From Parcubacteria group bacterium GW2011_GWC2_42_12 (GTDB lineage Bacteria; Patescibacteriota; Patescibacteriia; Patescibacteriales; GWC2-42-12): 42,627 bases of DNA. Position numbers and translations under genes: made by a program. The first letter of the stretch is position 1; every line of letters begins with the position of its first letter. Positions 15,617 to 41,461 of the stretch are shown one piece after another. The stretch is taken from the NCBI GenBank assembly GCA_000997945.1, contig LCCP01000005.1:1-42627 (forward strand), given 5' to 3'. The notes beneath the pieces are model-generated. The model ran no database searches and had not been told where the DNA came from. It worked only from the letters and a program-made list of their open reading frames with translations.

Positions 15617-15688
15617 TCCCGGGTAGCGCAGCGGTAGCGCAGCGCGCTGTTAACGCGTTGGTCGTCGGTTCGAATCCGACCCCGGGAG
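15617..15688 (+). tRNA. tRNA-Asn(GTT)
   Basis: Acceptor stem TCCCGGG/CCCGGGA with discriminator G. The D-arm is GCGCAGCGGTAGCGC. The anticodon stem GCGCG/CGCGT has loop CTGTTAA (anticodon GTT). The T-arm is GTCGG-TTCGAAT-CCGAC. CCA is not encoded. The 3' end is the integration site of the adjacent element. Confidence 0.95.
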
Positions 15689-17158
15689 CAAATTAGAACA
15701 CTTAGACGCTGAAAGCACCGTATCATACGGTGTTTTTAGCTTATATATGAGGTTTTTATCTTTTAATTGGCAGTTCTGAAGTAGGTAATTTAAAAATTGC
15801 CTTTGTTCCGGCACTTCAGAATTTTCAAAAATTTCACGAGCACGCTTTGCCAAATTTAATATAGTGTTTGCCGTGATATAATACTGATTATTGGCTTTAT
15901 CGTGTTTGCTTATTTCCGTCATTAGCTTGGCTTGCTTTTCCGTGTATTCTTTAAACTTTTTGTCATAGAAATCATTAGTAATACTACCGTCATATTTATC
16001 GTCTTGCAATTTGCTTTTGCGATTTTCAATTTTATCATATTCTTTTCTTAATTCCTGTAGCGTATTGGTAAAAAAGCGATTTTCTGATTTTGTGGCTTGT
16101 TTTAAGTCTTGCACTAACTCTTTAACTTTTTTATCCGGCAAATTTATACTATCCAATAATTCATAAATTGGCTTTAATAAATCGGCTTCTTTAACATAAA
16201 CCCTTTTTTTGTGGGTTCTATGATAATTCGTGCAACTATAATAAATATGCCCCTTTGAGGTTTCGGGCGTGATCGTGCAACCGCAATCGGCGCATTTTAT
16301 CAATCCTCTAAATATAAACGGCTTAGCGGCGTATTTAAAAGGTTTTTTATGCCAGCCATTCATTATCTCTTGGGCTTTATCAAACAAATTTTTGGCTATA
16401 AGCGACGGGTATTTATGCTGGTATAATTCGTTTTTTATTTTCATCATTCCATAGTAAAACGGATTTTTTAAAGTGTGGTAAAGCATACTTATTGAAAGGG
16501 GCTTAGGGCTTGCAGTATTGCTTTTTAATCCCGCCCGATCCATTGTTCCCTCAATCTGTCTTAATGAATAATCGCCGGTCGCATACATTTCAAACATTTG
16601 TTTTACATAAGGGCTTCGGCGAGGGTCAATCATAATAGCTTTATTGCCCTTTTCGTCCTCGTAATTGATATAACCTACGGGAGCTTTGCCAATCCATTCG
16701 CCATTTTTAATTTTATTTTCATTGGCTCTTTTTACATTATCGCTAACGGAGTCTGAATAGTATTTTGCAAGGCTTACGCCTATAGTAAATCTGAATAAAT
16801 CGGTAGCGGGGGAGTCTTTATGTAAAATAATATTATCCGAGGGGAAGTGTAGCTCTATTTTTCCGGCTCTTCTTAATTCTTCCAATAAAGCTAAATCCAT
16901 CGTGAAGTTTCTAATCAAGCGGTCAATCTTATCGCAACATAAAGCCGTTATCTCTTTTGAATTTTGCAGAATATCCAATATTCTTTTAAATTCTTCTCTT
17001 TTGGTTTTCCAAGCCGACTCATCAAAATTAAATTCTTTAAAAACGCTTAACTTTTTTTCTCGGCAATATTTCTGCAATCTTAATAATTGAGCGGGCAAGG
17101 AATTGCCAGCTTCTTTTTGCTCTTCAGTTGACACACGGGCTAAAATTATTGCTTTCAT
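15650..17158 (-). CDS. Large serine recombinase (integrase) reading into tRNA-Asn
   Basis: A 502-residue large serine recombinase. The catalytic domain starts MKAIILARVSTEEQ with nucleophile S10 and has CCDKIDRLIRN. The recombinase domain includes GKAPVGYINYED and LKNPFYYGMMK. A zinc ribbon (CADCGC ... YYSC) and a long coiled coil (about 360-450) follow. The last 12 codons (PGSDSNRRPTR and stop) are antisense tRNA-Asn sequence, so the gene crosses its own attachment site. A CACCGTAT-C-ATACGGTG palindrome (15716-15732) followed by TTTTT lies in the gene and could end tRNA transcription. It reads leftwards behind res. Confidence 0.93.
   Translation of the reverse strand: MKAIILARVSTEEQKEAGNSLPAQLLRLQKYCREKKLSVFKEFNFDESAWKTKREEFKRILDILQNSKEITALCCDKIDRLIRNFTMDLALLEELRRAGKIELHFPSDNIILHKDSPATDLFRFTIGVSLAKYYSDSVSDNVKRANENKIKNGEWIGKAPVGYINYEDEKGNKAIMIDPRRSPYVKQMFEMYATGDYSLRQIEGTMDRAGLKSNTASPKPLSISMLYHTLKNPFYYGMMKIKNELYQHKYPSLIAKNLFDKAQEIMNGWHKKPFKYAAKPFIFRGLIKCADCGCTITPETSKGHIYYSCTNYHRTHKKRVYVKEADLLKPIYELLDSINLPDKKVKELVQDLKQATKSENRFFTNTLQELRKEYDKIENRKSKLQDDKYDGSITNDFYDKKFKEYTEKQAKLMTEISKHDKANNQYYITANTILNLAKRAREIFENSEVPEQRQFLNYLLQNCQLKDKNLIYKLKTPYDTVLSASKCSNLLPGSDSNRRPTR
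15686..15689. other. Putative attachment-site core (GAGC/GCTC) at the tRNA-Asn end
   Basis: The junction between tRNA-Asn and the element reads GGGAGC-AAATTAG on the plus strand. In the recombinase reading direction this is TTG CTC then CCGGGG. The same GCTC tetramer sits at all six recombinase/cassette junctions further right. The exact crossover cannot be placed without the partner site. Confidence 0.5.
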
Positions 17159-17272: not shown

Positions 17273-19651
17273 TTAAAATAATTTTTCCATTGGTCGCCAA
17301 TTTTTGTCTTGGCCAATTTTACCTTTTTGATATTTATAATTTGTTGAGCCGTTATAATTCCAAACGCCGTTTTCAAAAATCGCTATACCGCCAACATAGC
17401 CCTTGCCCAATTCTTTGAGTTTTAAGGCCAATGCTTTGGTTTTGTCTGCCGTTTCGGGATCTTCGGCTGTTTGCCCGTCTTTAGGGTCAAAAATGCCTAT
17501 CCTGCCATTTTTAAAGCGTATTATGAAGTCTGGGTAGAATAGGGCTTCTTTGTCGTCAACGCTGTTAAAATACTTGATTGCAAAATACTCTTGGCCATAA
17601 TTGCCATTTTTAAACCACCAATCAATTTTTTTACTTTTGCTTTCAAGGTATTTGATAAAATTAAGCTCATTATCTTTGCCATTATAATCTTTAAGCACAA
17701 AACATTTATCCAAAGCGCAAAGTTTTTGCGGCACTTCTTCATAATCAGATGTAAAACCGTAATGTTCCAAAATTTCAAAAATCGGAGTTTCCTTTTCTTC
17801 TTCTCTTTTCTTTTTATCTTTTAGTATGGCTTGGGCTGTCGGCTTAAAATCAGCCAATGCTTTAGTTATTGCCGGCCTAAATTTACTGCTCGCTCCCTTT
17901 TGTATGTCTTTAACAAAAATTCTGTAATAATAGTTGCTGTCTTTGCTTAATGCCGATTGAAACCAAACACGGATCGCTGATTTAAGCACTCCCCAAGCAC
18001 GGGCGAAATTAGTATATTTTGCCCGCTCATCAGTTTGCTCTTTTAAAAGCGAATAGCAAAAGTAGTTAAAAGTTTTTTCAACATCGTTGGTTGACATTTC
18101 CAACTCAACATCAACGCCTTTTTTCTTAAACTCATAGGCCATTTGTTCAAGGTCTTCAAATTTAGCGTTGGCAATAATACTGTTGGTTAGCTTGCGGCTT
18201 AAATCAACGCCCGCTTTTTTTAGCTTTGCTTCCACTTTTCCAAAAATATCATTTTTAGTAATGCTAAAATAGATGTTAATTGAGTTGATAAAACTCGCTT
18301 GAAATTTTGCAGAGGCTGGTATATCGCCATAGTCAATGCGGGAAATATAGGCCGATTGTAATTTAACATTTTTAATGCCTTGCTTGCGGTAAGCAAACCT
18401 ATCAGGAATTTGTTTTTTCTTTAGATCGGGCAGTTCAACTTGGCTTCGTTTATAGTTGGTGTATAAATAGCCGGTTCTTAAATTCGGATTATTTTTATAA
18501 TCTTCTTTGGCCTGCGGTTCGGCCATTCTTAAAATACGGCCAACTGTTTGAGTATAAAAAGTTTCCTTTTTTATATCCCTAAACATAACTAACACGCTGG
18601 CGCGCGGGCAATCCCAGCCCGTGCCGGCGGCCTGTTTAAAAAGCATATAGTCAACTTTGCTGTCGTTGTCGGCAATAAAGTCCAAGTTCTCTTTTTTCTT
18701 GTCAAACCATTTAGCTATCTGTTTATTTTTAACGCCCTTAACGGCTAAAAATTGGCTCACAACTTCTTCTTTTGTCTTATCGCCTTTGGCCATAAGCTCT
18801 TTGTCGTCATTAGGGAGCTGGATCAGCATTAGCGGGTTAATATCCTTACCTAACGCTTTTAATTCATTCGCCAGCTCTTGCCGTTTTTCCATCCCTAAGG
18901 TCAACAGCATTTCGTCTAAATCCTTGCCCTTATGTTGTTTCAAATCTTCTTCAGTCTGCACTAAAATTTTTTCTTTAATCAAACCCTCGTCAACTACTTT
19001 TTCCCTTTCAACCGGCACAAAACTACCTAATGTAGCGGCCTTAACTACATCCTTGTCATCCGGCGTTGCGGTAATAAGGACAGCAATTTTAGGGTCTACA
19101 AGATCAATAATATCTTGCGCCAATTCAGTTGTTTTGTTGGTGTGGGCTTCGTCTATAAATAAAATAATTTCTCGGCCTGCCTTTTTAGTTTCCTCAATTA
19201 CATCTTCAAAATAACTGCCGCTTTCCTTTTTAAATCTTTTATCTTTCGGTTTGCGTAATTTTAGTTTTCTGGTTGAGGCGTTATCTTGCACAACCTTTTG
19301 CCAATTTAAAAATAAAATATCGTTTTCGTATAACTTGCCCCTGTTTATATCATTTACAGTCAACAGCGCATTTTCTAAATTGTTTTCAAAATACTCCCTA
19401 AATTTATCCCTGCTTTGCATTGTCAAGTCATCGCTAAAAGTAATCCAAATAAACGCCTTATCTATTTTCCATTGCGGTAAGTGATTAAGCCCTTTTATAA
19501 AATGGGCAATGGTTAAAGTCTTGCCGCTTCCGGTAGGGGATTTAAAAACCAAAGGCAACTGCCGGCCTTGTTTTTTCCAAAGCCGCAAAAAGGCTTCGTT
19601 TAAGCCGTCAATAGCTGTTTTTTGAAATGGTAAAAGATTAAATACAGGCAT
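17273..19651 (-). CDS. Type III restriction endonuclease subunit Res
   Basis: A 792-residue helicase-nuclease. Walker A is SPTGSGKT near residues 39-46 and the DEAH-type motif is LFIDEAHTN near 167-175. ITATPDDKD is motif III, and TGWDCPRASVLVMFRD plus TQTVGRILRMAEP are motifs V and VI. Near the C-terminus FYPDFIIRFKNGRIGIFDPKDG fits the PD-(D/E)xK nuclease core. Res works in complex with Mod to translocate on and cut unmethylated DNA. It follows mod by 2 bp. It is shorter than many Res proteins (often 900-1000 residues) but all core motifs are present. Confidence 0.9.
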   Translation of the reverse strand: MPVFNLLPFQKTAIDGLNEAFLRLWKKQGRQLPLVFKSPTGSGKTLTIAHFIKGLNHLPQWKIDKAFIWITFSDDLTMQSRDKFREYFENNLENALLTVNDINRGKLYENDILFLNWQKVVQDNASTRKLKLRKPKDKRFKKESGSYFEDVIEETKKAGREIILFIDEAHTNKTTELAQDIIDLVDPKIAVLITATPDDKDVVKAATLGSFVPVEREKVVDEGLIKEKILVQTEEDLKQHKGKDLDEMLLTLGMEKRQELANELKALGKDINPLMLIQLPNDDKELMAKGDKTKEEVVSQFLAVKGVKNKQIAKWFDKKKENLDFIADNDSKVDYMLFKQAAGTGWDCPRASVLVMFRDIKKETFYTQTVGRILRMAEPQAKEDYKNNPNLRTGYLYTNYKRSQVELPDLKKKQIPDRFAYRKQGIKNVKLQSAYISRIDYGDIPASAKFQASFINSINIYFSITKNDIFGKVEAKLKKAGVDLSRKLTNSIIANAKFEDLEQMAYEFKKKGVDVELEMSTNDVEKTFNYFCYSLLKEQTDERAKYTNFARAWGVLKSAIRVWFQSALSKDSNYYYRIFVKDIQKGASSKFRPAITKALADFKPTAQAILKDKKKREEEKETPIFEILEHYGFTSDYEEVPQKLCALDKCFVLKDYNGKDNELNFIKYLESKSKKIDWWFKNGNYGQEYFAIKYFNSVDDKEALFYPDFIIRFKNGRIGIFDPKDGQTAEDPETADKTKALALKLKELGKGYVGGIAIFENGVWNYNGSTNYKYQKGKIGQDKNWRPMEKLF

Positions 19652-19653
19652 AA

Positions 19654-21504
19654 TTAAACAAGGTTATAAATATTTTTATAAATTTCCAAAATCGGTTGCG
19701 GAATGGTTTTAATTTTTATGTTTTTATCGTCGTCAAAGTCGTTAAAATCAAATTCTTTTTCCCAGCTAAAAATATATACAACCGTCGGTTTTTTTAGCTT
19801 TCTAATTTTTTCAACAAAGTTATCAAACTTTCCAAATTCTTCCCTAAAATAAATGGCGGTAAATTGTTTAGGGCTTTCAAAGATTTGCCAAAAATTATTT
19901 TGCTCAACCAGATCAAAGGTATTTTCGGCAATGGCCAGCATACCGCCTGCGTTGTGGGCTAAATCAATTTTATCAGCGTCATCAGCTTTTAAGATATTAT
20001 TTTTACCAACAAAAGCCGTTTTGAAATATCTAACCGAATTGCCCAAACCTTTTTTTGAATTATAGCCCTTTATTACATTTTTAATTCGTGGATAACAAAT
20101 ATCCGTCATTATTTTGTGGTTTTGGCCGTTTATAACTTCTTCGTTATTTGTGATTATAATAAATTGCCTCTCCCCATCATCTTCCTTATTTAATTCCATT
20201 ACAGCATGACCTGTTGTGCCTGATCCAGCAAAAAAATCAAGAATTGTAGCATATTTATTGTTATTCCATTTTAAGATTTGCTTAACTAATCTAACTGGTT
20301 TTTTACCGTTCTTAAAATCTATATTACCCTCATCTTGAATATTACGCATATCCAAATGAAAACCTTTCCAAAGATCGCCTCGCAAAGTGCATCTTGTAAA
20401 TGCAGATTCAAAATCATCTGAATTTTTAATACCCTCTTTAAATTTTATAAACATACGAACTGAGCCAGTTGTTGTCTTAAATAAAAGCCTGTCTTCAAAT
20501 CTAAATGGTTTCCCAGTCGGTTGTTTTTTTAAAAAATTTTGATCAATTTTTTTAGCAAACGGCTGATCCGTAAATAATTTTTCTGCAACGGATACATACA
20601 TAAAATCTTTAAATTTTTCGTTAAAATTCATCATGAAATTTATGCTCCTTGCATTTATTTTGAGTTTGTTTTTACTAAATAGTTCTTTTACCCATTTTTC
20701 GTCATTTAAAAAATCAACAAGGCTAATTCTTGATAAATCATCTTTAATAATTGTATTAAAATGTGAGTCATATAATTCCCGCATATTGTCATAAAGTGGC
20801 TGTTTATTTTTTACTTCGCTTTTATTTTTTGCATAAACTAAAACATAGTCTTTTACTTTTACAAAAGTTTTATCAGCATGACCAGCTTTTGTTCCAAAAA
20901 CCTCACCACTTTCAATGACATTAAGCGAAATAAAATTACTTTCATTAAAAATTTCATCGCATAAAAGTTTTAACTGCGCAAGTTCGTTGTCGTCAATGCT
21001 TATAAAAATTAAACCGGTTTTAGCCAAAATATCCCTTGCTAAATCAAGACGCTTTTTCATAAAAGATAGCCAGTAGCTATGTCTCAAAGGATGTTCAACC
21101 GGCACTTCCGTGCCGTCGGGGTATTCTTCTAAAATTCTTTTGTCTTTATACTTAAAGCCGTCCGAGCCGGTGTTATACGGCGGGTCAATATAAATAACAT
21201 CAACCTTTCCTTTGTGGGTATAGTTTAGGCAAGTCAAGGCGTGGTAATTGTCGCCCTCAATCAGTAAATGCGTTGGCTTGCCGTCTTTGCTATATATTGC
21301 CTGCTTCGGCACTTCTTCCAAAATTGGGAGCTTATTTTCAACATCATCTTCAAAGGCTTCCGGCACATCAAGCCAAACTAAACCAAAGCGGTTTTGTTTT
21401 AGCTCTATGGCTTCGTATTTAGCAATTTTTTTATTAAGCCTCGCTATCTCATTTTCCAACTGCGCCTTTTCGTTTTCTTCGGGAGTACGCTTTGTGCTTT
21501 TCAT
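19654..21504 (-). CDS. Type III DNA methyltransferase subunit Mod
   Basis: A 616-residue adenine-N6 methyltransferase of the beta class. Catalytic motif IV is DPPY at residues 107-110 (VIYIDPPYNTGSDGF). Specificity is set by the variable middle region about 190-400. The SAM-binding motif FFAGSGTTGHAVMELN comes afterwards, giving the Mod motif order. A coiled N-terminus (ENEIARLNKKIAKYEA) is common in Mod proteins. It modifies the target and provides specificity to Res. The HTH gene ends 2 bp upstream, so the order HTH-mod-res is one operon. Confidence 0.92.
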   Translation of the reverse strand: MKSTKRTPEENEKAQLENEIARLNKKIAKYEAIELKQNRFGLVWLDVPEAFEDDVENKLPILEEVPKQAIYSKDGKPTHLLIEGDNYHALTCLNYTHKGKVDVIYIDPPYNTGSDGFKYKDKRILEEYPDGTEVPVEHPLRHSYWLSFMKKRLDLARDILAKTGLIFISIDDNELAQLKLLCDEIFNESNFISLNVIESGEVFGTKAGHADKTFVKVKDYVLVYAKNKSEVKNKQPLYDNMRELYDSHFNTIIKDDLSRISLVDFLNDEKWVKELFSKNKLKINARSINFMMNFNEKFKDFMYVSVAEKLFTDQPFAKKIDQNFLKKQPTGKPFRFEDRLLFKTTTGSVRMFIKFKEGIKNSDDFESAFTRCTLRGDLWKGFHLDMRNIQDEGNIDFKNGKKPVRLVKQILKWNNNKYATILDFFAGSGTTGHAVMELNKEDDGERQFIIITNNEEVINGQNHKIMTDICYPRIKNVIKGYNSKKGLGNSVRYFKTAFVGKNNILKADDADKIDLAHNAGGMLAIAENTFDLVEQNNFWQIFESPKQFTAIYFREEFGKFDNFVEKIRKLKKPTVVYIFSWEKEFDFNDFDDDKNIKIKTIPQPILEIYKNIYNLV

Positions 21505-25764: not shown

Positions 25765-26283
25765 ATGTCAAGCGATGTATATAAAGATTTTTTAATACAA
25801 GCCCGAGTTAATGAGGGGCTTGTATTATATTTAAAAGATGAATGTTCTAAGGAGTGTTTTTTTAAATGGATATTTGTTGCCATTTATTATTCTGCATTAC
25901 ATTACTTTAATGCCTTTTTATCATTTAAGGGTCATCCCTTACCGGAGAGCCATTTTAACAATAAATATAATTTAGGTGATGTTGAGTTGGCGAGAGATAA
26001 ATTTTATACACAAAAAAATGATATTACTCACGGCGCAGGAGCTGATTATAGCCAACTTTTTCAATGGGGCTTTGATGTTAGATATAAACCCTATCAAGCC
26101 GCACTTATTAATGAAAAGACTTTAGATGTAGCTATAAATTTTCTTGAAGGTATTAAACTAACCACTTTTAATGAAATAGGATGTATGCCCGAGATGGAAA
26201 AAGGTAAAATTGAAATAAAACAGGTTAGTAAAGATTATTTATCAAAAACTTATAATAAATATATTCAATTAGTAAATAATTAA
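25765..26283 (+). CDS. HEPN-like protein
   Basis: A 172-residue helical protein. KWIFVAIYYSALHYFNAFLSFKG resembles the second helix of HEPN domains, and QKNDITHG (K84, N85, H89) sits where HEPN RNases have R-N-x-x-x-H, with lysine instead of arginine. HEPN proteins are often RNA-cutting toxins or effectors; the substitution could reduce or abolish catalysis. Its stop codon overlaps the convergent recombinase stop at 26280, so the two genes end on the same bases. Confidence 0.55.
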   Translation: MSSDVYKDFLIQARVNEGLVLYLKDECSKECFFKWIFVAIYYSALHYFNAFLSFKGHPLPESHFNNKYNLGDVELARDKFYTQKNDITHGAGADYSQLFQWGFDVRYKPYQAALINEKTLDVAINFLEGIKLTTFNEIGCMPEMEKGKIEIKQVSKDYLSKTYNKYIQLVNN

Positions 26284-27779
26284 AAACTATTTGGAAAGCT
26301 ACCGCATTGGAAAATAGATAATTCTTCTTTTATTTTATCCCAATCCAGCGTTCTAAATATGTTCTTAATCGGGAGCCATGTCGCATACGCCTGCCTTCGG
26401 CAGGCAAGCTCCCACTCAAATTGAGCTAAAAATTCAAACTTTCCGCCTTGCAAAATAAAGTTCGAGCCGATATTTCTTAGAAATGCTTTGAATTGGGGAA
26501 GATCGCCTTCATCGGCGGTCTTTTTTGCTAATCTTGAACGCAAAATAAAATCTCTCATTGGTTCGAGCCAATTATCGCCCTGATCGTTAATTCTTTTGAC
26601 TTTTTCTTCCAGGCCGATTTTTTTGTTGATTAGTTCCTCTTTCTTTCTCAAATAGTCGTTTTTATCAATTACATTTTCCAGATGAGAATCAAGCAGATTA
26701 TCAAGTTTATTCTCAATAATTTTAACTTCCTGATTTAAAGAATTAACCAGGGCGACAGATGATTGGGCGGTTGCCTTTTTCTCTTTATTTAATTCATTAA
26801 GCATATTATTAGCCCAATCATCAGGTAAAGAAACTTTTTGCATTATATTTTTAAGCTGGTCGGTTAAATTTTCTTCTCTAACATATTTTTCAGCGCAGAT
26901 GCCTTTTTTCTTGGTACAGCGGTAATAAATATGGCCTTTGTGCTTTTCGGCGGTAATCGCACAGCCGCAAGCTCCGCACTTCATAAAGTCGGTAAAAATA
27001 TAATTGTGTATTTTCTTTTCATGATGCCGGCCTCTTCGTTTTAGCATAACTTGGGCTTGGTCAAAAAGTTTCTTGGTTATAATTGGCTCGTGCTTGCCTT
27101 CGTGCATTTCGCCCTTATATCTAAACACGCCGTAATAAAAAGGATTTTTTAAAACGAACAACATCATGCCCGGACTTATCTTTTTACCGTTGTGGCTGGT
27201 TAACCCCAAACCGTTAAATTTATCGGCTAAATTTTTTAGGGTATATTCGCCGGTGGAGTAGAGCTCAAAAATCCTTTTTATAAGTTTATGCTTTTCGGTG
27301 TGGATAACTATATTGTGGTTTTTATAGTCGTTCAGATAGCCGAGCGGCGCCCAGCCCGGATAAACTCCGTTTCTTAATTTTTGCCTTAATCCTCGTTTTA
27401 CGTTTTCCGAAAGGTTGTCTATAAAATACTTGCTTTGGCCGAAAGCGATGTTAAGCATAAACTTTCCCTGCGGCGTGTCCTCAAACCAGAAAGAGGGGAA
27501 TTTAAGAGATTTTATTTTGCCCGTATCAACCATATAAATAATTCGACCGCCGTCAATCGGATTTCTGGCTAAGCGATCAGGATGCCACGATAAAATGCCG
27601 TCTGCCTGCCCATTTTCAATCAAAGCCAGCATTTTGCCGAATTTCATTCGGCCAGGTTCTTTGGCAGTTTTTGCCTCGCAGAGCGAGGCGGCGATTTCAA
27701 GTTTTTCTTTGGCGGCAAATTCTTTTAATTCGGCATCGTCTTCATCGGTGGATTTACGGGCGTAAAGTATATATTTCAT
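26280..27779 (-). CDS. Large serine recombinase R2 with cargo-derived C-terminus
   Basis: A 499-residue large serine recombinase. It starts MKYILYARKSTDEDD with nucleophile S10. LSWHPDRLARNPIDGG and GYLNDYKNHN follow, then LKNPFYYGVF, a zinc ribbon (CGACGC ... YYRC) and a coiled coil. Compared with related proteins, about ten residues after STDEDD (usually R-Q-x-x-S-I-x-x-Q) are missing, which may impair the catalytic domain. The last 30 residues after ATWL lie outside the inverted-repeat unit (26280-26372), so they come from the neighbouring cassette. ATG 27779 is preferred to an earlier start. Confidence 0.88.
   Translation of the reverse strand: MKYILYARKSTDEDDAELKEFAAKEKLEIAASLCEAKTAKEPGRMKFGKMLALIENGQADGILSWHPDRLARNPIDGGRIIYMVDTGKIKSLKFPSFWFEDTPQGKFMLNIAFGQSKYFIDNLSENVKRGLRQKLRNGVYPGWAPLGYLNDYKNHNIVIHTEKHKLIKRIFELYSTGEYTLKNLADKFNGLGLTSHNGKKISPGMMLFVLKNPFYYGVFRYKGEMHEGKHEPIITKKLFDQAQVMLKRRGRHHEKKIHNYIFTDFMKCGACGCAITAEKHKGHIYYRCTKKKGICAEKYVREENLTDQLKNIMQKVSLPDDWANNMLNELNKEKKATAQSSVALVNSLNQEVKIIENKLDNLLDSHLENVIDKNDYLRKKEELINKKIGLEEKVKRINDQGDNWLEPMRDFILRSRLAKKTADEGDLPQFKAFLRNIGSNFILQGGKFEFLAQFEWELACRRQAYATWLPIKNIFRTLDWDKIKEELSIFQCGSFPNSF
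26373..26451 (-). repeat. R2 inverted arm, left
   Basis: 79 bp starting GAGCCATGTCGCATACGCC on the plus strand; inverted copy at 27881-27959. Contains the CGCCTGCC-TTCGGCAGGC hairpin. Confidence 0.85.
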
Positions 27780-27880
27780 AATTTTGAAAGAAATACTGAT
27801 TTTAATCATGATTTAAATCAGTATTTAAATAAAAAGAAAAAAAGAAAAGTTTGCTTTTGGCTTTCCTCGCTGTCGCTCGG

Positions 27881-27959
27881 GCAAGGCGGAAAGTTTGAAT
27901 TTTTAGCTGAATTTGAGTGGGCGCTTGCCTGCCGAAGGCAGGCGTATGCGACATGGCTC
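27881..27959 (+). repeat. R2 inverted arm, right
   Basis: 79 bp from GCAAGGCGGAAAG to ATGGCTC; inverted copy of 26373-26451 with two mismatches. Confidence 0.85.
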
Positions 27960-28004
27960 CGATTTTACGCCGAAGTTCGAACGGAATTCAAAAAAAGGTT
28001 TTAA
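27882..28004 (+). pseudogene. Mirror copy of the recombinase 3' end with alternative tail
   Basis: Read on the plus strand this encodes QGGKFEFLAEFEWALACRRQ, AYATWL and then a new tail, RFYAEVRTEFKKRF, before a stop. The frame is open across the GGCTC junction, with CTC as the same leucine codon as in R2. It has no start of its own; it would become the C-terminus of R2 if the unit inverted. Confidence 0.7.
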
Positions 28005-28077
28005 ACTATTTTATATAAAGCTTTTAAAAGCGCCCGCCCCCGCTTTTAAAAGCCCCCGCGGGCAAAGCCCGACTTTA
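27960..28077 (+). repeat. Cassette C1 end repeat (tail A), left
   Basis: About 118 bp starting CGATTTTACGCCGAAGTTCG and including AAGCTTTTAAAAGCGCCCG hairpins. An inverted, nearly identical copy ends C1 at 32331-32455. A related version starts C3 at 40984. No gene is visible in 28005-28322. Confidence 0.8.
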
Positions 28078-28263
28078 AAAAACTGCCAAAGAACCTGTAA
28101 AAAATATCGGCTCGAACTTTATAATCAAACGAGCGAGAGAAATAAAAAATTCATTTTTTTTATTTCCGAGCGAGCGCAGATTATATCCACTGAATATTTT
28201 AAGCCAAAAGCAAACTTTTCTTTTTTGTTGAATTTATTGATATAATTGTATTAATTATATTAT

Positions 28264-28322: not shown

Positions 28323-28544
28323 ATGCCAAAATCTATTTATTCTAAGGAATATAAAACCGCTGTAGAAAAATTAAAAAAGGCTAGGCAAGAAGCTGGTCTT
28401 AAACAGATTGAAGTAGCAAAAAAATTAGGCAAGCCACAATCATATATTTCAAAAATTGAAAGAGGCGAGAGAAGAGTTGATATCGCCGAGTTAAAAGAAT
28501 TAGCAAGAATTTATAAAAAGAGTATAAATTTTTTTGTTGAATAA
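28323..28544 (+). CDS. XRE-family HTH regulator, R-M controller-like (cassette C1)
   Basis: A 73-residue protein that is almost only a Cro/CI-type helix-turn-helix: LKKARQEAGLKQIEVAKKLG, then KPQSYISKIERGERRVDIAEL. Its size, fold and position 2 bp before a putative nuclease gene match controller (C) proteins of type II R-M systems, which activate their own operon and the nuclease late after entry. It is clearly related to the 73-residue HTH protein of cassette C3 (41240-41461). Confidence 0.75.
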   Translation: MPKSIYSKEYKTAVEKLKKARQEAGLKQIEVAKKLGKPQSYISKIERGERRVDIAELKELARIYKKSINFFVE

Positions 28545-32254: not shown

Positions 32255-32330
32255 AAATAATTTGCCGCCAAATCGCCCCGCAGGCGCGGGGCGGAGCGGG
32301 CTTTCGCCAGCGGAAAAACTTGAAATCGTC

Positions 32331-32455
32331 TAAAGCCGGGCTTTGCCCGCGGGGAAATTTTGCTTTTAAAAGCGGGGGCGGGCGCTTTTAAAAGCTTTAT
32401 ATAAAATAGTTTAAAACCTTTTTTTGAATTCCGTTCGAACTTCGGCGTAAAATCG
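32331..32455 (-). repeat. Cassette C1 end repeat (tail A), right
   Basis: Inverted copy of 27960-28077, starting (minus strand) CGATTTTACGCCGAAGTTCG right after the AGCTC junction. It also encodes the C-terminal tail of recombinase R3. Confidence 0.8.
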
Positions 32456-33878
32456 GAGCTTTCCGCCTTAAGGCGGAAAGCTTTTCAGGCGAAAATTCAG
32501 CCCCGCCCCGCACCTCGCAGGCGGGGTTTTCGGTTTGGAGCGAATTAAAAAGATTTTCCCCTAAAACAAAAGAAATTCTAATGCTTTCGGGCGAATAAGT
32601 TATTTTTTTAAGAAATCTTTTAGCTAAAAGATTTCTTTCGACTCCCGTCTTAGTTTTGAGGGCAGAAAGGAAAAATTTTAGAGTGTGAGCAATTTTCTCT
32701 GACGAAAATTGCGAAAATTTAGAGCATGCAGGCGTCAGTTCGTATTCGGCCTCGTGGGGCGTTCGCAACGCCTCATTTTGCGAATTAGGTTGATTATTTT
32801 GTAATTCATAGTTTAGCCGAAAAACTAGATTTTCAATATAATCGCTGTCAACGGAAATTCGCTCTAAATTTTCAATACAAAAATTTTCCAATCTTTCGGC
32901 GGATACTTGTTTTACCGAACAGGCTTGCCAGTCGTGCCCCAAAGTAGAGGTACAGCGATAGTAATAATATCTCGTCAGCTTTCCGTTCGTTCTCTTATTC
33001 GTAAAATAAGAGGTCATTTTAGAGCCGCATTTTTCGCATTTTATCAAACCGCCGAAAAGAAAATTTTTGTATACTCTAAAATTTTTTCTTTTGTTTTTGT
33101 GTATTTTTTGAGCAAGGGCAAAAATTTCTTCCGAGATTATCGATTCATGCGTGCCTTGATAAATTTCATCGTTATATTTTATTTTTCCGACATAAACGAC
33201 ATTTCTTAATATAGAGAAGATAGTAGTTTTAGAGAAATTTTTGCCCCGTTTATTTTTTATGCCTTTTTCTATTGCCATTTTATATACTTTTGACAATGAG
33301 CCGATTTCAAGATAGTTTTCAAAAATTGATTTTATTTCTTCGGCTTCTTTCGGGCAGGGGATAAGCTTTTTGTTTTCGCGCGCGTATCCGTAAGGCGTAT
33401 TTCCGCCATTGCACATGCCTTTTTTAGCCCGCTCCAGCATTTTGTCTTTTGTCCGCTCGCTAGTTAGTTCTCTTTCAAACTGGGAAAAAGTAAGCATGAT
33501 GTTGCGAAGCAATCTGCCCGCTGGCGTTGAAGTGTCAAATCTTTCAGTAATAGAAATAAAATCAATTTTTGCTTGCTCAAAAAATTCGATCAACTGATAA
33601 AAGTCCTTGGGCGAACGGGTGAGCCGGTCGATTTTATACACAAAAACAATATCAATTTTTTCTTTTTTTAAATCCGAAAGCAGTTGTTGCAGAGCAGGCC
33701 TTTCAAGGGTTACCCCTGAATAGCCAGCGTCGGAATAAACTTTGAAAACTCGCCAATCGTTCTGGCTGGAGATAAACGACTTTATTTTTTGCTCCTGGGC
33801 CTCGCAAGACGAAAACTCTTTTTCCGCTTGGTTATCGGTTGAAACTCTTGTATAAATCGCGCAATTTTTATAATTCAT
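32397..33878 (-). CDS. Large serine recombinase R3
   Basis: A 493-residue serine recombinase of a different subfamily from R2. It has MNYKNCAIYTRVSTDNQ (S13), VFVYKIDRLTRSPKDFYQ, MLTFSQFERELTSERTKD, PYGYARENK, and a zinc ribbon (CEKCGS ... YYRCTSTLGHDWQAC). The catalytic domain is complete, so this is the only apparently intact recombinase in the right-hand array. The last residues after RRKAP are encoded by the end of cassette C1, in another frame from the R2 tail. ATG 33878 follows a structured leader. Confidence 0.92.
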   Translation of the reverse strand: MNYKNCAIYTRVSTDNQAEKEFSSCEAQEQKIKSFISSQNDWRVFKVYSDAGYSGVTLERPALQQLLSDLKKEKIDIVFVYKIDRLTRSPKDFYQLIEFFEQAKIDFISITERFDTSTPAGRLLRNIMLTFSQFERELTSERTKDKMLERAKKGMCNGGNTPYGYARENKKLIPCPKEAEEIKSIFENYLEIGSLSKVYKMAIEKGIKNKRGKNFSKTTIFSILRNVVYVGKIKYNDEIYQGTHESIISEEIFALAQKIHKNKRKNFRVYKNFLFGGLIKCEKCGSKMTSYFTNKRTNGKLTRYYYYRCTSTLGHDWQACSVKQVSAERLENFCIENLERISVDSDYIENLVFRLNYELQNNQPNSQNEALRTPHEAEYELTPACSKFSQFSSEKIAHTLKFFLSALKTKTGVERNLLAKRFLKKITYSPESIRISFVLGENLFNSLQTENPACEVRGGAEFSPEKLSALRRKAPILRRSSNGIQKKVLNYFI

Positions 33879-34251
33879 ATTTTTAAAAACCAAAGGGGCA
33901 ACCCTGCGAACCCAATCCCGCTTTCGCGAAATTGACAGGAGTTGCCCCTTCGGTATTACAACAATTAAGTTATAATAAAAAATCGCGGAGCGTATGGATT
34001 GGGTTCGTTCCTATTATACCAAATATTTGAAAAAAAGAAAAAGAAAAAATTGATACCGCCCTCAAAACAAAAAATAACCTATTCGCCCGAAAGCATTAAA
34101 ATTTCTTTTGTTTTAGGGGAAAACCTTTTTAATTCGCTCCAAACCGAAAGCCCCGCCTGCGAGGTGCGGGGCGGGGCTGAATTCTCGCCTGAAAATTTTT
34201 CCGCCTTAGGGCGGAAAACTGAAGATGAGTTCGTTTCGTTAAGCAATGCTC
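32456..34251. mobile_element. Recombinase unit R3 with inverted ends
   Basis: A 1796-bp unit whose ends are the R3 3' coding region (32456-32610) and a mirror copy (34063-34251). The mirror copy differs by a 45-bp-class deletion and an extra stretch of about 29 bp before TGCTC. The outer ends are GAGC and GCTC as in R2. Less exact than the 79-bp arms of R2. Confidence 0.65.
33893..34007 (-). promoter_or_regulatory. Structured leader of recombinase R3 (interlocking inverted repeats)
   Basis: In transcript order: CGAACCCAATCC (34007-33996), AAGGGGCAAC (33950-33941), GGATTGGGTTCG (33918-33907), GTTGCCCCTT (33902-33893), then TGGTTTTT and the start codon at 33878. Segments 1/3 and 2/4 pair perfectly but interlock, so they form a pseudoknot or two exclusive hairpins. 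The second resembles a terminator. This layout suggests attenuation or translational control of the recombinase. Confidence 0.55.
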
Positions 34252-34394
34252 CCCAAAAAAAATTTCAGCGAACCCCGCAAGAAAGCAGGCTTTCAACGGG
34301 GCATGCTTTTACTCTCGTCCTGCCGAATTTAATCCACAAAGCAAGGACTTGCCTTCCAAAGGCACGGCGTAGGCAAAAAAAGAATTTAAGCTGA
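34063..34394 (+). pseudogene. Mirror copy of recombinase R3 3' end with different tail
   Basis: Open frame QKITYSPESIKISFVLGENL, then FNSLQTESPACEVRGGAEFS, matching R3 KKITYSPESIRISF and following residues, then diverging after the GCTC junction into a tail encoded by cassette C2. No start codon or catalytic part is present. It is the 3' remnant or the alternative C-terminus of an R3-type recombinase. Confidence 0.75.
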
Positions 34395-34568
34395 AAAATA
34401 TATTAAAATAATTTAAAAGTAATCAGTTAGGGGGCAAAGCCCCCTCTAACCCCCAAGAAAAGCGGGCGGGCAAAAAGGAAGGGGTTTAAGGGGAGGGAAT
34501 TTTTGCCCGCCCGCTTTTCCGCCCCGCCGTATTTTTTCGTATTTCGCTTCGCGAAATGCGCCGCCAAG
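34252..34568 (+). repeat. Cassette C2 end repeat (tail B), left
   Basis: About 317 bp starting CCCAAAAAAAAATTTCAGCG and including GCCGAATTTAATCCACAAAG, GGGGGCAAAGCCCCC and a GCGGGCGGGCAAAAA block. An inverted, diverged copy is at 39149-39430. No gene was seen in 34395-34782 apart from the structured RNA candidate. Confidence 0.75.
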
Positions 34569-34627
34569 TTGATTTTTTCATCCCAATATGCTACTTTATA
34601 ATTAACAATTAAAACAATCCGCCTAAC

Positions 34628-34758
34628 CCTCGTGGCTTTTGTCGCGAGGTATGGCTGAAATCCCAACGAAGATACTGGACCCCGCGTTCAGCGACTCTTC
34701 GTTGGGTCATATTTCGAAAGGAGTATGCGACCGCAAGGTCCCGCTGGCGCGGGGTTTT
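34628..34758 (+). ncRNA. Candidate structured RNA/5' leader of the secreted protein gene
   Basis: CCTCG/CGAGG hairpin (34629-34650); CCCAACGAA (34663-34671) pairs with TTCGTTGGG (34699-34707); ACCCCGCG..CAGCG (34680-34694) pairs with CGCTG.CGCGGGGT (34742-34755); GACC-GCAA-GGTC is a GNRA-type hairpin. The 1-2-1'-2' order interlocks as in the R3 leader, and a CCCGC/GCGGG stem followed by GTTTT ends it 25 bp before the start codon. It fits no RNA family I recognise. Confidence 0.5.
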
Positions 34759-39149: not shown

Positions 39150-39430
39150 GGCGGCGCGCCCCGCATTGGCGAGGCACGAAAAAACACGGCGGGGCGGAAA
39201 AGCGGGAGGGCAAAAATTTCCCTTCCCCCGACCCCCTTTCCTTTTTTACCCGCCCGCTTTTTGGGGGTTAGAGGGAGCTTTACCCCCTAATTAATTACTT
39301 TTAAATTATTTTAATATTTTTCAGCTTAAATTCTTTTTTTGCCTGCGCCGAAACTTCGGCAGGCAAGTCCTCGCTTTGTGGATTAAATTCGGCAAGATGA
39401 GGGTAAAAGTTCGCTGAAATTTTTTTTGGG
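39149..39430 (-). repeat. Cassette C2 end repeat (tail B), right
   Basis: Inverted, diverged copy of 34252-34568. On the minus strand it starts CCCAAAAAAAATTTCAGCG directly after GGCTC. It also encodes the last 15 residues (PKKNFSELLPSSCRI) of the R2' recombinase. Confidence 0.75.
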
Positions 39431-40820
39431 GAGCCAGTTTGAAAACGCCTGCCTTCGGCAGGCCAGCGCCCACTCAAATTCAGCTAAAAATTCAAACTTT
39501 CCGCCTTGCAAAATAAAGTTCGAGCCGATATTTTTTAGAAATGCTTTGAATTGGGAAAGATCGCCTTCGTCGGCGGTCTTTTTTGCTAACCTTGAACGCA
39601 AAATAAAATCTCTCATTGGTTCGAGCCAATTATCGCCCTGATTGTTAATTCTTTTGATTTTTTCCTCCAGGCCGATTTTTTTGTTGATTAGCTCCTCCTT
39701 CTTTCTTAAATAATCATTTTTGTCAATTACTTCCTCCAAATGAGAATCAAGCAGTATATCAAGTTTGCTCTCAACAGTCTTTATTTTTTCATTTGAAGAA
39801 TTAACCAGGACGATGGATGATTGGGCAGTTGCTATTTTCTCCTTATTTAATTCATTTAGCATATTATCAGCCCAATCATCAGGCAAAGAAACTTTTTGCA
39901 TTATATTTTTAAGCTGTTCAGTCAACATTTCTTCTCTAACATATTTTTCAGCGCAACTGCCTTTTTTCTTGGTACAGCGGTAATAAATATGGCCCTTATG
40001 TTCTTCGGCCGTAATTGCACAACCGCAAGTTCCGCATTTCATAAAGTCGGTAAAAATATAATTGTGGATTTTCTTTTCATGATGCCGGCCTCTTTTCTTT
40101 AGCATCTCCTGCGCTTGATCAAAAAGTTTCTTAGTTATAATTGGCTCGTGCTTTCCTTCGTGCAGTTCGCCGTTATATTTAAACACGCCGTAATAAAAAG
40201 GATTTTTTAAAACGAACAGCATCATGCCCGGACTTACTTTTTTGCCGTTGTGGCTGGTTAATCCCAAACTGTTAAATTTATCGGCTAAATTTTTAAGGGT
40301 ATATTCGCCGGTGGAGTAGAGCTCAAAAATCCTTTTTATAAGTTTATGCTTTTCGGTGTGGATAACTATATTATGGTTTTTATAGTCGTTCAGATAACCA
40401 AGCGGCGCCCAGCCTGGATAAACTCCGTTTCTTAACTTTTGCCTAAGGCCTCGTTTAACGTTTTCCGAAAGGTTGTCAATAAAATATTTACTTTACCCGA
40501 AAGCGATGTTAAGCATAAACTTGCCTTGCGGCGTGTCCTCAAACCAAAAAGAGGGGAATTTGAGAGATTTTATTTTGCCTGTATCAACCATATAAATAAT
40601 TCTACCGCCGTCAATCGGGTTGCGAGCTAGACGATCAGGATGCCATGAGAGTATGCCATCAGCCTTGCCTTGTTCAATCAGGGAAAGCATTTCGCCGAAT
40701 TTCATTCGGCCAGGTTCTTTGGCAGTTTTTGCCTCGCAGAGCGAGGCGGCGATTTCAAGTTTTTCTTTGGCGGCAAATTCTTTTAATTCGGCACTTACGC
40801 GCATAGAGAATGTATTTCAT
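39383..40820 (-). pseudogene. Recombinase R2', decayed second copy of R2
   Basis: Strongly similar to R2 over the whole length. Two lesions are visible. Near 40795 the start MKYILYARK runs out of frame because the catalytic serine segment is deleted (GCGCGTAA joined to GTGCCGAATT). At 40493-40495 a CAA codon of R2 (FGQSKYF) is TAA. Downstream the frame is open to the end, with the zinc ribbon CGTCGC ... YYRC. The C-terminal tail differs from R2 after NWL. It lacks the nucleophile and is surely inactive, yet its inverted arms are preserved. Confidence 0.88.
39431..39509 (-). repeat. R2' inverted arm, left
   Basis: 79 bp starting GAGCCAGTTTGAAAACGCC on the plus strand; inverted copy at 40905-40983. 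Confidence 0.85.
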
Positions 40821-40904
40821 AGTTTTAAGGGAAATATTGATTTTAATCAGTATTTAAATCAGTATTTCCATAAAAAGAAAAAAAGGAAAGTTTGCTTTTG
40901 GCTG

Positions 40905-40983
40905 GCAAGGCGGAAAGTTTGAATTTTTAGCTGAATTTGAGTGGGCGCTTGCCTGCCGAAGGCAGGCGTTTTCAAACTGGCTC
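40905..40983 (+). repeat. R2' inverted arm, right
   Basis: 79 bp from GCAAGGCGGAAAG to AAACTGGCTC; inverted copy of 39431-39509 with one mismatch. Confidence 0.85.
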
Positions 40984-41028
40984 GGATTTTATGAATTAGT
41001 TCGAACGGAATTCAAAAAAAGGTTTTAA
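40906..41028 (+). pseudogene. Mirror copy of R2' 3' end with alternative tail
   Basis: Open frame for the conserved recombinase end, then across GGCTC into GFYELVRTEFKKRF and a stop. The tail is a variant of the one at 27960-28004 (RFYAEVRTEFKKRF), in the same frame and of the same length. Confidence 0.7.
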
Positions 41029-41180
41029 ATTATTTTATAAAAAGCTTTTAAAAGCGCCCGCCCCCGCTTTTAAAAGCAATAATTTTCCCGCGGGCAAAGC
41101 CCGACTTTAAAAAACTGCCAAAGAACCTGTAAAAAATATCGGCTCGAACTTTATTTTAAGCCAAAAGCAAACTTTTCTTT
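40984..41180 (+). repeat. Cassette C3 end repeat (tail A')
   Basis: Starts GGATTTTATGAATTAGTTCG, then follows tail A of C1 closely (TTCGAACGGAATTC, the AAGCTTTTAAAAGCGCCCG hairpins, GGCAAAGCCCGACTTTAAAA). It continues through AAATATCGGCTCGAACTTTA, which itself resembles a piece of the recombinase gene (NIGSNFIL). No gene between 41029 and 41239. Confidence 0.75.
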
Positions 41181-41239
41181 ATTCCAATTTGTCATATTAC
41201 ATTTTAGAATATATCATATAAATACATTAATAGCAATAT

Positions 41240-41461
41240 ATGAGTAGCAATCTATACTCCAAGGAGCATGAATCCATAGTCGAAAAATTAATAAAAGCCC
41301 GCCATGAAGCGGACTTTGATCAGATTGAGGTTGCAAAAAAATTGGGCAGATCTCAATCTTATTTGTCTAAAATAGAATCTGGACAGCGTAAAATCGATGT
41401 AGTTCAGTTAAAGAAGTTTGCTGAAATTTATAAAAAAGATATTAATTTTTTTCTAAAATAA
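41240..41461 (+). CDS. XRE-family HTH regulator, R-M controller-like (cassette C3)
   Basis: A 73-residue HTH protein: LIKARHEADFDQIEVAKKLG, then RSQSYLSKIESGQRKIDVVQ. It has the same length and clear similarity to the C1 controller-like protein (28323-28544). It precedes the HNH nuclease gene by 2 bp. The ATCCTA/TAGGAT operator seen in front of the C1 gene is not present here, so the two may recognise different sites. Confidence 0.75.
   Translation: MSSNLYSKEHESIVEKLIKARHEADFDQIEVAKKLGRSQSYLSKIESGQRKIDVVQLKKFAEIYKKDINFFLK

Follow-up and report, generated by a model that had tools for sequence, protein, structure and literature searches.

Large serine recombinases (LSRs) with the domain order Resolvase-Recombinase-zinc ribbon are known from integrative elements of the phiC31, Bxb1 and A118 type and, as ccr, from SCCmec. 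SCC elements form tandem arrays, and in this they resemble the array described here. tRNA genes are typical targets of another group, the SSV-type elements. The archaeal 'suicidal' tyrosine integrases of this type carry the attachment site attP within the integrase gene, which insertion alters, and gene-disrupting recombinases were reported exclusively from archaea (PMC8371274). Serine integrases, for their part, were in 2014 not known to target tRNA genes (PMC4383910). We analysed a stretch of 42,627 nt (the window) from Parcubacteria group bacterium GW2011_GWC2_42_12 (contig LCCP01000005.1, positions 1-42,627, forward strand), with the LSR genes R1, R2 and R3 and the LSR pseudogene R2′, which lies between two inverted arms. 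R2′ is likely to be a recently dead layer in a tandem array of small integrative elements at a tRNA-Asn gene, with mirror-image copies of attP.

In domain order, and in the attP/attB logic that their junctions suggest, these elements are close to those of phiC31, Bxb1, A118 and SCCmec ccr; unlike them, they appear to have attP in the recombinase gene's own 3′ end and to carry a second attP, inverted. With the SSV-type integrases they would share an attP within the gene and an alteration of that gene by insertion, but a suicidal integrase is a tyrosine recombinase split by integration, whereas the present recombinases are of the serine family, have only their C-terminal tail swapped, are not split and belong to a bacterial host. 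As for Hin and Gin, the recombinase gene lies within or beside inverted sites and has a DNA-constrained element in the 5′ part of its open reading frame (ORF); the arms, however, are far longer than the 26-bp hix sites, no flipped units were seen, and the recombinase is a large one. Inverted repeats and strict DNA complementarity at the attachment region recall CTXphi attP and integron attC, although those are used by tyrosine recombinases and single-strand use is here only putative. The KplE1-type integrases also combine insertion at a tRNA gene with an att copy beside the integrase promoter (PMC2951348), but there the adjoining site is attL itself and here it is an extra, apparently intact and inverted attP-like site. 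A widespread family in uncultured bacteria thus appears to target tRNA genes with serine integrases and to alter itself in doing so, contrary to the descriptions in PMC4383910 and PMC8371274, and to keep a second, mirror-image attP, the halves evolving in concert. Because the arms reveal the sites, candidate attP/attB pairs directed at tRNA 3′ ends can now be tested by the dozen. No published description of the layout was found in the open-access literature searched; searches for circular, phage or plasmid forms gave no match in PLSDB or INPHARED at 1e-60, and only two partial matches in IMG/VR.

The R2′ unit and its inverted arms

The R2′ unit comprises the following features:
39383-40804, minus strand: R2′, LSR pseudogene, interrupted by a stop (40493) and frameshifted by a 47-nt deletion near 40793
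39431-39509, minus strand: gene-side arm (putative P half-site), inverted repeat with the upstream arm
40731-40747, minus strand: hairpin GCCTCGC-TCT-GCGAGGC within the R2′ ORF, between the N2 and N1 segments
40905-40983, plus strand: upstream arm, inverted copy of the putative P half-site
40984-41109, plus strand: F of R2′ (putative P′ half-site; natural C-terminus GFYELVRTEFKKRF*)
41110-41157, plus strand: N1 and C-motif copies of R2′
41158-41183, plus strand: LB′ of R2′

An earlier note on this DNA had reported that the arms match at 78 of 79 positions, and this was confirmed: 39431-39509 and 40905-40983 are inverted copies over 79 nt, and chance is excluded (BLAST E 4e-33). As it had also remarked, the variable outer part of the arm agrees within each unit, R2′ having CGTTTTCAAACTGGCTC and R2 CGTATGCGACATGGCTC in both of its arms; the variable bases, at which R2 and R2′ differ, are the last ones before the core. 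The arm is one of several inverted pairs in the unit, along with the C-motif, the N1-motif, LB and the flank F/P′.

The two lesions described in the gene are real. The in-frame stop at 40493, where ORF 40493-40804 ends, is a CAA to TAA change. With the intact relative L048 as reference, the deletion in the catalytic segment removes 47 nt right after ATG..GCGCGTAAG, that is after the first nine codons; it shifts the frame and hits the catalytic start. Resolvase, Recombinase and zinc-ribbon domains were recognized with Pfam in R1, R2 and R3, and across both halves of R2′. Over 454 codons, 126 sites differ between R2 and R2′, with a ratio of nonsynonymous to synonymous substitution rates (dN/dS) of 0.13, and R2′ has a single stop; nearly all of the divergence therefore predates the death of R2′. 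Since R2′ died recently, 1 mismatch in 79 is what drift predicts for the time elapsed. R2′ is a recently dead copy, and the match of its arms needs no rescue by another recombinase.

The R2 unit and the lack of a helper

The corresponding features of R2 are:
26280-27809, minus strand: R2, LSR that has lost the RQ(I/V)LSIExQ catalytic segment through an in-frame deletion of 30 nt and is probably inactive
26373-26451, minus strand: gene-side arm (putative P half-site), which encodes the C-terminus as far as WL
27881-27959, plus strand: upstream arm, inverted copy of the putative P half-site
27960-28077, plus strand: F of R2 (putative P′ half-site and hairpin region), forming with the arm an apparently intact attP-like site and encoding the natural C-terminus RFYAEVRTEFKKRF*
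28078-28122, plus strand: N1 (AAAAACTGCCAAAGAACCTG) and C-motif (AAAAAATATCGGCTCGAACTTTAT), two segments of the R2 gene present here as fused inverted copies
28201-28226, plus strand: LB′, a 26-mer identical (inverted) to LB at 27838-27863 upstream of R2; precedes the xre gene

R2 had been taken as intact, which it is not, and R2′ as mobilised in trans, which is not supported. R2 lacks 10 residues of the RQ(I/V)LSIExQ region that are present in the other full-length R2-type relatives examined; its deletion is in the same place as that of R2′, and the right-hand boundary is common to both. Judging from this missing segment, R2 is probably inactive. An intact catalytic N-terminus is thus found neither in R2′ (frameshifted) nor in R2, the relatives and R3 being full length there. 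No further R2-like recombinase above ~45% identity was found in the host genome (90% complete), the sole other R2-type match being at 45%. With R2 deprived of its catalytic segment, R2′ therefore lacks a helper; the arms of R3 differ from those of R2 and R2′. Of the earlier interpretation, the agreement of the arms within units is supported, whereas mobilisation in trans of the recently dead R2′ and repeated inversion (see below) are not.

The arms as putative halves of attP

A set of 61 LSR genes was chosen on protein similarity alone (38 from the window and its order, 23 from the class plus L045 and L047), in mostly metagenomic assemblies. Inverted arms of 40-240 bp were found in 49 of the 61 and are perfect in 15; among the units lacking arms, many are degenerate or cut by contig ends. 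The armed units include other orders and another phylum (Harrisonbacteria, L045; Margulisiibacteriota, L047). The gene-side arm encodes the C-terminal region of the recombinase as far as a Trp-Leu pair. Past this pair, the upstream inverted arm continues as RFYAEVRTEFKKRF in R2 and as GFYELVRTEFKKRF in R2′, the typical ending of an uninterrupted LSR gene. The gene-side arms of relatives end within a tRNA gene, ~4-9 nt from its 3′ end, and the LSR reading frame runs on into the tRNA, giving tails such as WLPGSDSNRRPIG and WWAGLDSNQRR. On the upstream side, the arm leads into a natural C-terminal tail with the motif VRTFF..NP, which a pattern search recovered in 30 of the 49 units and which can be read in most of the tabulated junctions.

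Of the 49 armed units, 35 have a tRNA gene, of many types, against the gene-side arm alone, none has one against the upstream arm alone and one (L101) has them against both arms, the other 13 having no tRNA call or an end off the contig. Beside the upstream arm of L115 and L116 lies tRNA-Pro(cgg); with L101, these units hint that the upstream site may also serve for insertion. The distal flanks are inverted-duplicated as well: F′ lies 1.3-4.5 kb away and is 98-100% identical to F over 88-110 bp in several units (100% in L111, L162, L163, L173 and L177). Bounds resembling attL and attR, with the arm against the tRNA at one end and the inverted P′ (F′) at the other, were found in several relatives, and F/F′ in the window. 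Many contigs end less than 500 bp from arms (L098, L099, L103, L105, L107, L108, L117, L124, L125 and others). Such breaks would be expected where identical inverted arms exceed the assembly word length, and these elements are probably under-assembled in metagenomes.

From the anatomy of arm, tRNA and tail, we infer that the arm is the half of attP kept with the gene, the natural tail is P′, and the upstream arm with its P′ is an intact inverted attP-like site. Each element would then be ordered as ARM - LSR gene - ARM/P′(F) - xre - cargo - P′(F′). The site of the recombinase, ARM/P′, would be located in the 3′ end of its own gene, so that insertion at a tRNA 3′ end would replace the natural C-terminal tail by one read from the tRNA or from a neighbour, and a second intact attP would be carried, inverted, upstream of the gene. 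The arms would be the P halves of the two sites, and the distal flanks (F/F′ and, for R3, G/G′) the P′ halves. In an excised circle, the two identical inverted attP would separate the recombinase gene from the cargo. Templated copying between the inverted copies during the active phase, followed by recent death, would leave the 78-of-79 match of R2′.

The probable tandem array at tRNA-Asn

The remaining features of the array are:
15617-15689, plus strand: tRNA-Asn(GTT), putative attB and anchor of the island; from its 3′ end, GGGAGC, comes the core GCTC(CC) of the array junctions
15650-17158, minus strand: R1, LSR that takes its last codons (LLPGSDSNRRPTR) from the 3′ end of tRNA-Asn; without detectable inverted arms
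28323-28544, plus strand: small gene of the Xre helix-turn-helix type, the first in the cargo of element 1
32331-32459, minus strand: F′, distal inverted F copy (94%), right end of element 1; an N2 copy at about 32262-32330 precedes
32397-33893, minus strand: R3, LSR of another subfamily, with arms at 32460-32608 and 34069-34217 (94%)
34248-34540, plus strand: G, flank of the R3 upstream arm, with an inverted copy at 39176-39434; the two are the ends of cargo 2
39176-39434, minus strand: G′, end of element 2 on the distal side, directly adjoining the gene-side arm of R2′
41240-41461: 74-codon Xre counterpart in element 3

Along the window, tRNA-Asn comes first, followed by R1 with its cargo; then R2 between its arms, F, xre, cargo 1 and F′; then R3 between its arms, G, cargo 2 and G′; and last R2′ between its arms, F, xre and cargo 3, the contig end falling inside element 3. 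Cargo 1 is bounded by F/F′ (94%) and cargo 2 by G/G′ (87%), both inverted repeats. The tRNA 3′-end insertion junction of the window is that of R1 at tRNA-Asn, and GCTC, present in all array junction cores, corresponds to the reverse complement of the tRNA 3′ end GGGAGC. In another genome of the genus (G003), an R3-type LSR element follows the same tRNA-Asn, which there too adjoins the upstream sigma-factor-like gene; in G001 an R3-type fragment is found at the corresponding tRNA-Asn. The R2 array probably consists of tandem elements at tRNA-Asn, which would have arisen by successive insertions with R2′ among the oldest.

Several observations weigh against R2′ being such a layer with mirror-image attP copies. 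R1, the element adjoining the tRNA, has no detectable arms; neither a circular form nor an inversion was seen, nor an empty site for this array; and the distal end of element 3 is beyond the contig end. Two identical inverted attP predict insertion in both orientations, yet the gene 3′ end is at the tRNA in 35 of 35 informative units; our guess is that a tRNA-read tail may disable the recombinase and so lock the element. LSRs bind about 25 bp per half-site, and the identity of the arms extends over 60-180 bp, more than binding needs. Finally, a role in attP does not account for the short copies (N1, N2, C and LB).

The upstream site might instead be retained for autoregulation, the recombinase binding there and repressing its own promoter. 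The attP-like copy lies ~30-350 bp before the start codon in most units, and in the KplE1 IntS precedent attL overlaps the promoter (PMC2951348). This would account for retention of the site but not for its near identity over such a length, and in R3 the site is upstream of the promoter-like box; we therefore find this improbable.

Some further observations were made in and near the array. In the same genus, L051 (G002:C11, 4154-4450) shows tRNA-Asn, a 40-bp terminator-like palindrome and then F-N1-C-LB′-xre, the recombinase being absent between them. Between R1 and R2 (17273-21504), a helicase-like gene (17273-19651) and a methyltransferase-like gene (19654-21504), as read from the sequence, resemble a type III restriction-modification pair and are a probable defence cargo. 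An Rfam LOOT RNA (RF03000, 76.4 bits) lies at 34620-34741 (plus strand), just within cargo 2 past the G repeat. The R3 leader (33910-34040) is near-identical in five genomes, and its two interleaved stems, GAACCCAATCC/GGATTGGGTTC and GGGGCAAC/GTTGCCCC, suggest a pseudoknotted RNA or a protein-bound site. Rfam searches of the window and the leader gave only the LOOT RNA, tRNAs and weak chance matches.

Concerted evolution of the arms

That arms agree within units and not between them proved true in many independent units. For pairs of units with gene bodies 75-93% identical, the arms are 41-96% identical between units and 77-100% identical within them, mostly 95-100%. The comparison with the gene body that the earlier note had called for thus gave a divided answer: between units the arms diverge as fast as the gene or faster, and within units they do not. 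In an aged-looking minority (L054, L056, L101, L115, L126, L129 and L171) the arms are at 77-87%. Within-unit mismatches, in units at 90% or above, are 27 G-U compatible versus 28 A-C compatible; from this lack of G-U bias it follows that identity of the DNA, and not RNA pairing, is what is kept.

Repeated inversion or conversion had been proposed as the cause, and only the second is supported. In a Hin-like invertible segment, the recombinase gene would flip between the arms and so keep them matched, and for R2′ the flipping would be done in trans, by R2 or by some other recombinase. The gene is indeed flanked by inverted sites, and it has a DNA-constrained segment in the 5′ part of the ORF, which is where the Hin/Gin enhancer lies. 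But a crossover at the outer core leaves the arm sequence unexchanged, so that inversion by the recombinase alone fails to explain the concerted arms; the tRNA junctions face one way (35 against none, leaving aside the unit with tRNAs at both ends); and inversion in trans meets the lack of a helper already noted. We consider inversion quite improbable. Some copying or conversion, or strong selection at the DNA level, is supported, and gene conversion or replication template switching between the inverted copies would be the simplest source.

Short inverted copies of gene segments

The fused inverted copies upstream of R2-type genes are of C, located just before the arm, and of N1 (nt 138-158), and an N2 copy is found at the distal end of R2-type elements. 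Other LSR families, R3 included, have analogous N and C copies taken from other positions. The N1 copies differ from their own gene by 0.36 mismatches versus 1.98 for the genes of other units, and the C copies by 1.62 versus 4.80 (permutation 0 of 10000); the N1 and C mismatches together are 13 G-U versus 16 A-C. In genes close to R2, synonymous codons are 0.89-0.96 identical in the copied segments versus ~0.4-0.8 over most of the gene. Between N2 and N1, the 7-bp ORF hairpin is 99.5% paired over 26 sequences, with double changes in 4 of 7 pairs and no G-U, and looks like a DNA structure. Both the copies and the hairpin are conserved across phyla. That ORF segments have inverted copies so nearly exact points to a process acting on recombinase genes at the DNA level; no precedent for it was found in the open-access literature searched.

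Regulation of the recombinase by a leader antisense to its own mRNA would fit the short exact antisense gene pieces just upstream of the gene in at least four LSR families. However, there is no sign of G-U tolerance in the arms or in N1 and C, the ORF hairpin has no G-U, and in R3 a promoter-like TATAAT is downstream of the upstream arm, which makes RNA pairing very unlikely. We give still less credit to inert debris, i.e. an old inverted partial gene copy matched through recent duplication or assembly collapse. The N1-C fusion does resemble an internally deleted inverted gene copy, and many contig ends are near arms; but the same layout recurs with unit-specific variants in other orders and another phylum, the N1 and C copies are closer to their own gene than to others, and perfect arms occur in contiguous assemblies (L111, L170).

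Alternatively, much as for CTXphi attP or integron attC, the inverted copies could let a single-stranded element fold into a double-stranded attP, which would keep the arms, F/F′, N1 and C complementary. These pairs are all inverted and agree within units, the ORF hairpin has double changes and no G-U, and the arm mismatches are as expected for DNA. Serine recombinases, though, cut all strands, and cutting such a stem would leave hairpin-capped chromosome ends; all the pairs cannot form in one planar fold; and there is no indication of single-stranded transfer. A folded attachment site in this strict sense is doubtful. A broader proposal, only slightly less doubtful, is that a family of elements with self-complementary DNA ends (two complete inverted attP copies, short inverted copies of two ORF segments and the ORF hairpin, all nearly exact), in Patescibacteria-type genomes and Margulisbacteria, may pass through a folded single-stranded or equally DNA-structured intermediate at tRNA insertion.

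Two other candidates were rejected. An overlapping antisense ORF does not explain the constrained ORF segment, the frames being not consistently open. The LB repeat need not be a simple palindrome split by insertion: LB also precedes xre, so that a shared operator is equally likely.

The distal N2 copy is often split at the same place by a GC-rich palindrome of the TCGCCCCGCAGGCGCGGGGCGGAGCGGGC type (window 32262-32330, L050, L052, L059 and L062). In L048/L044 (G006:C23), a 72-nt piece that is usually upstream (piece X) occurs also within the LSR gene, where it separates C-motif and arm (L048, 5656-5727), as if copied across the inverted C-motifs.
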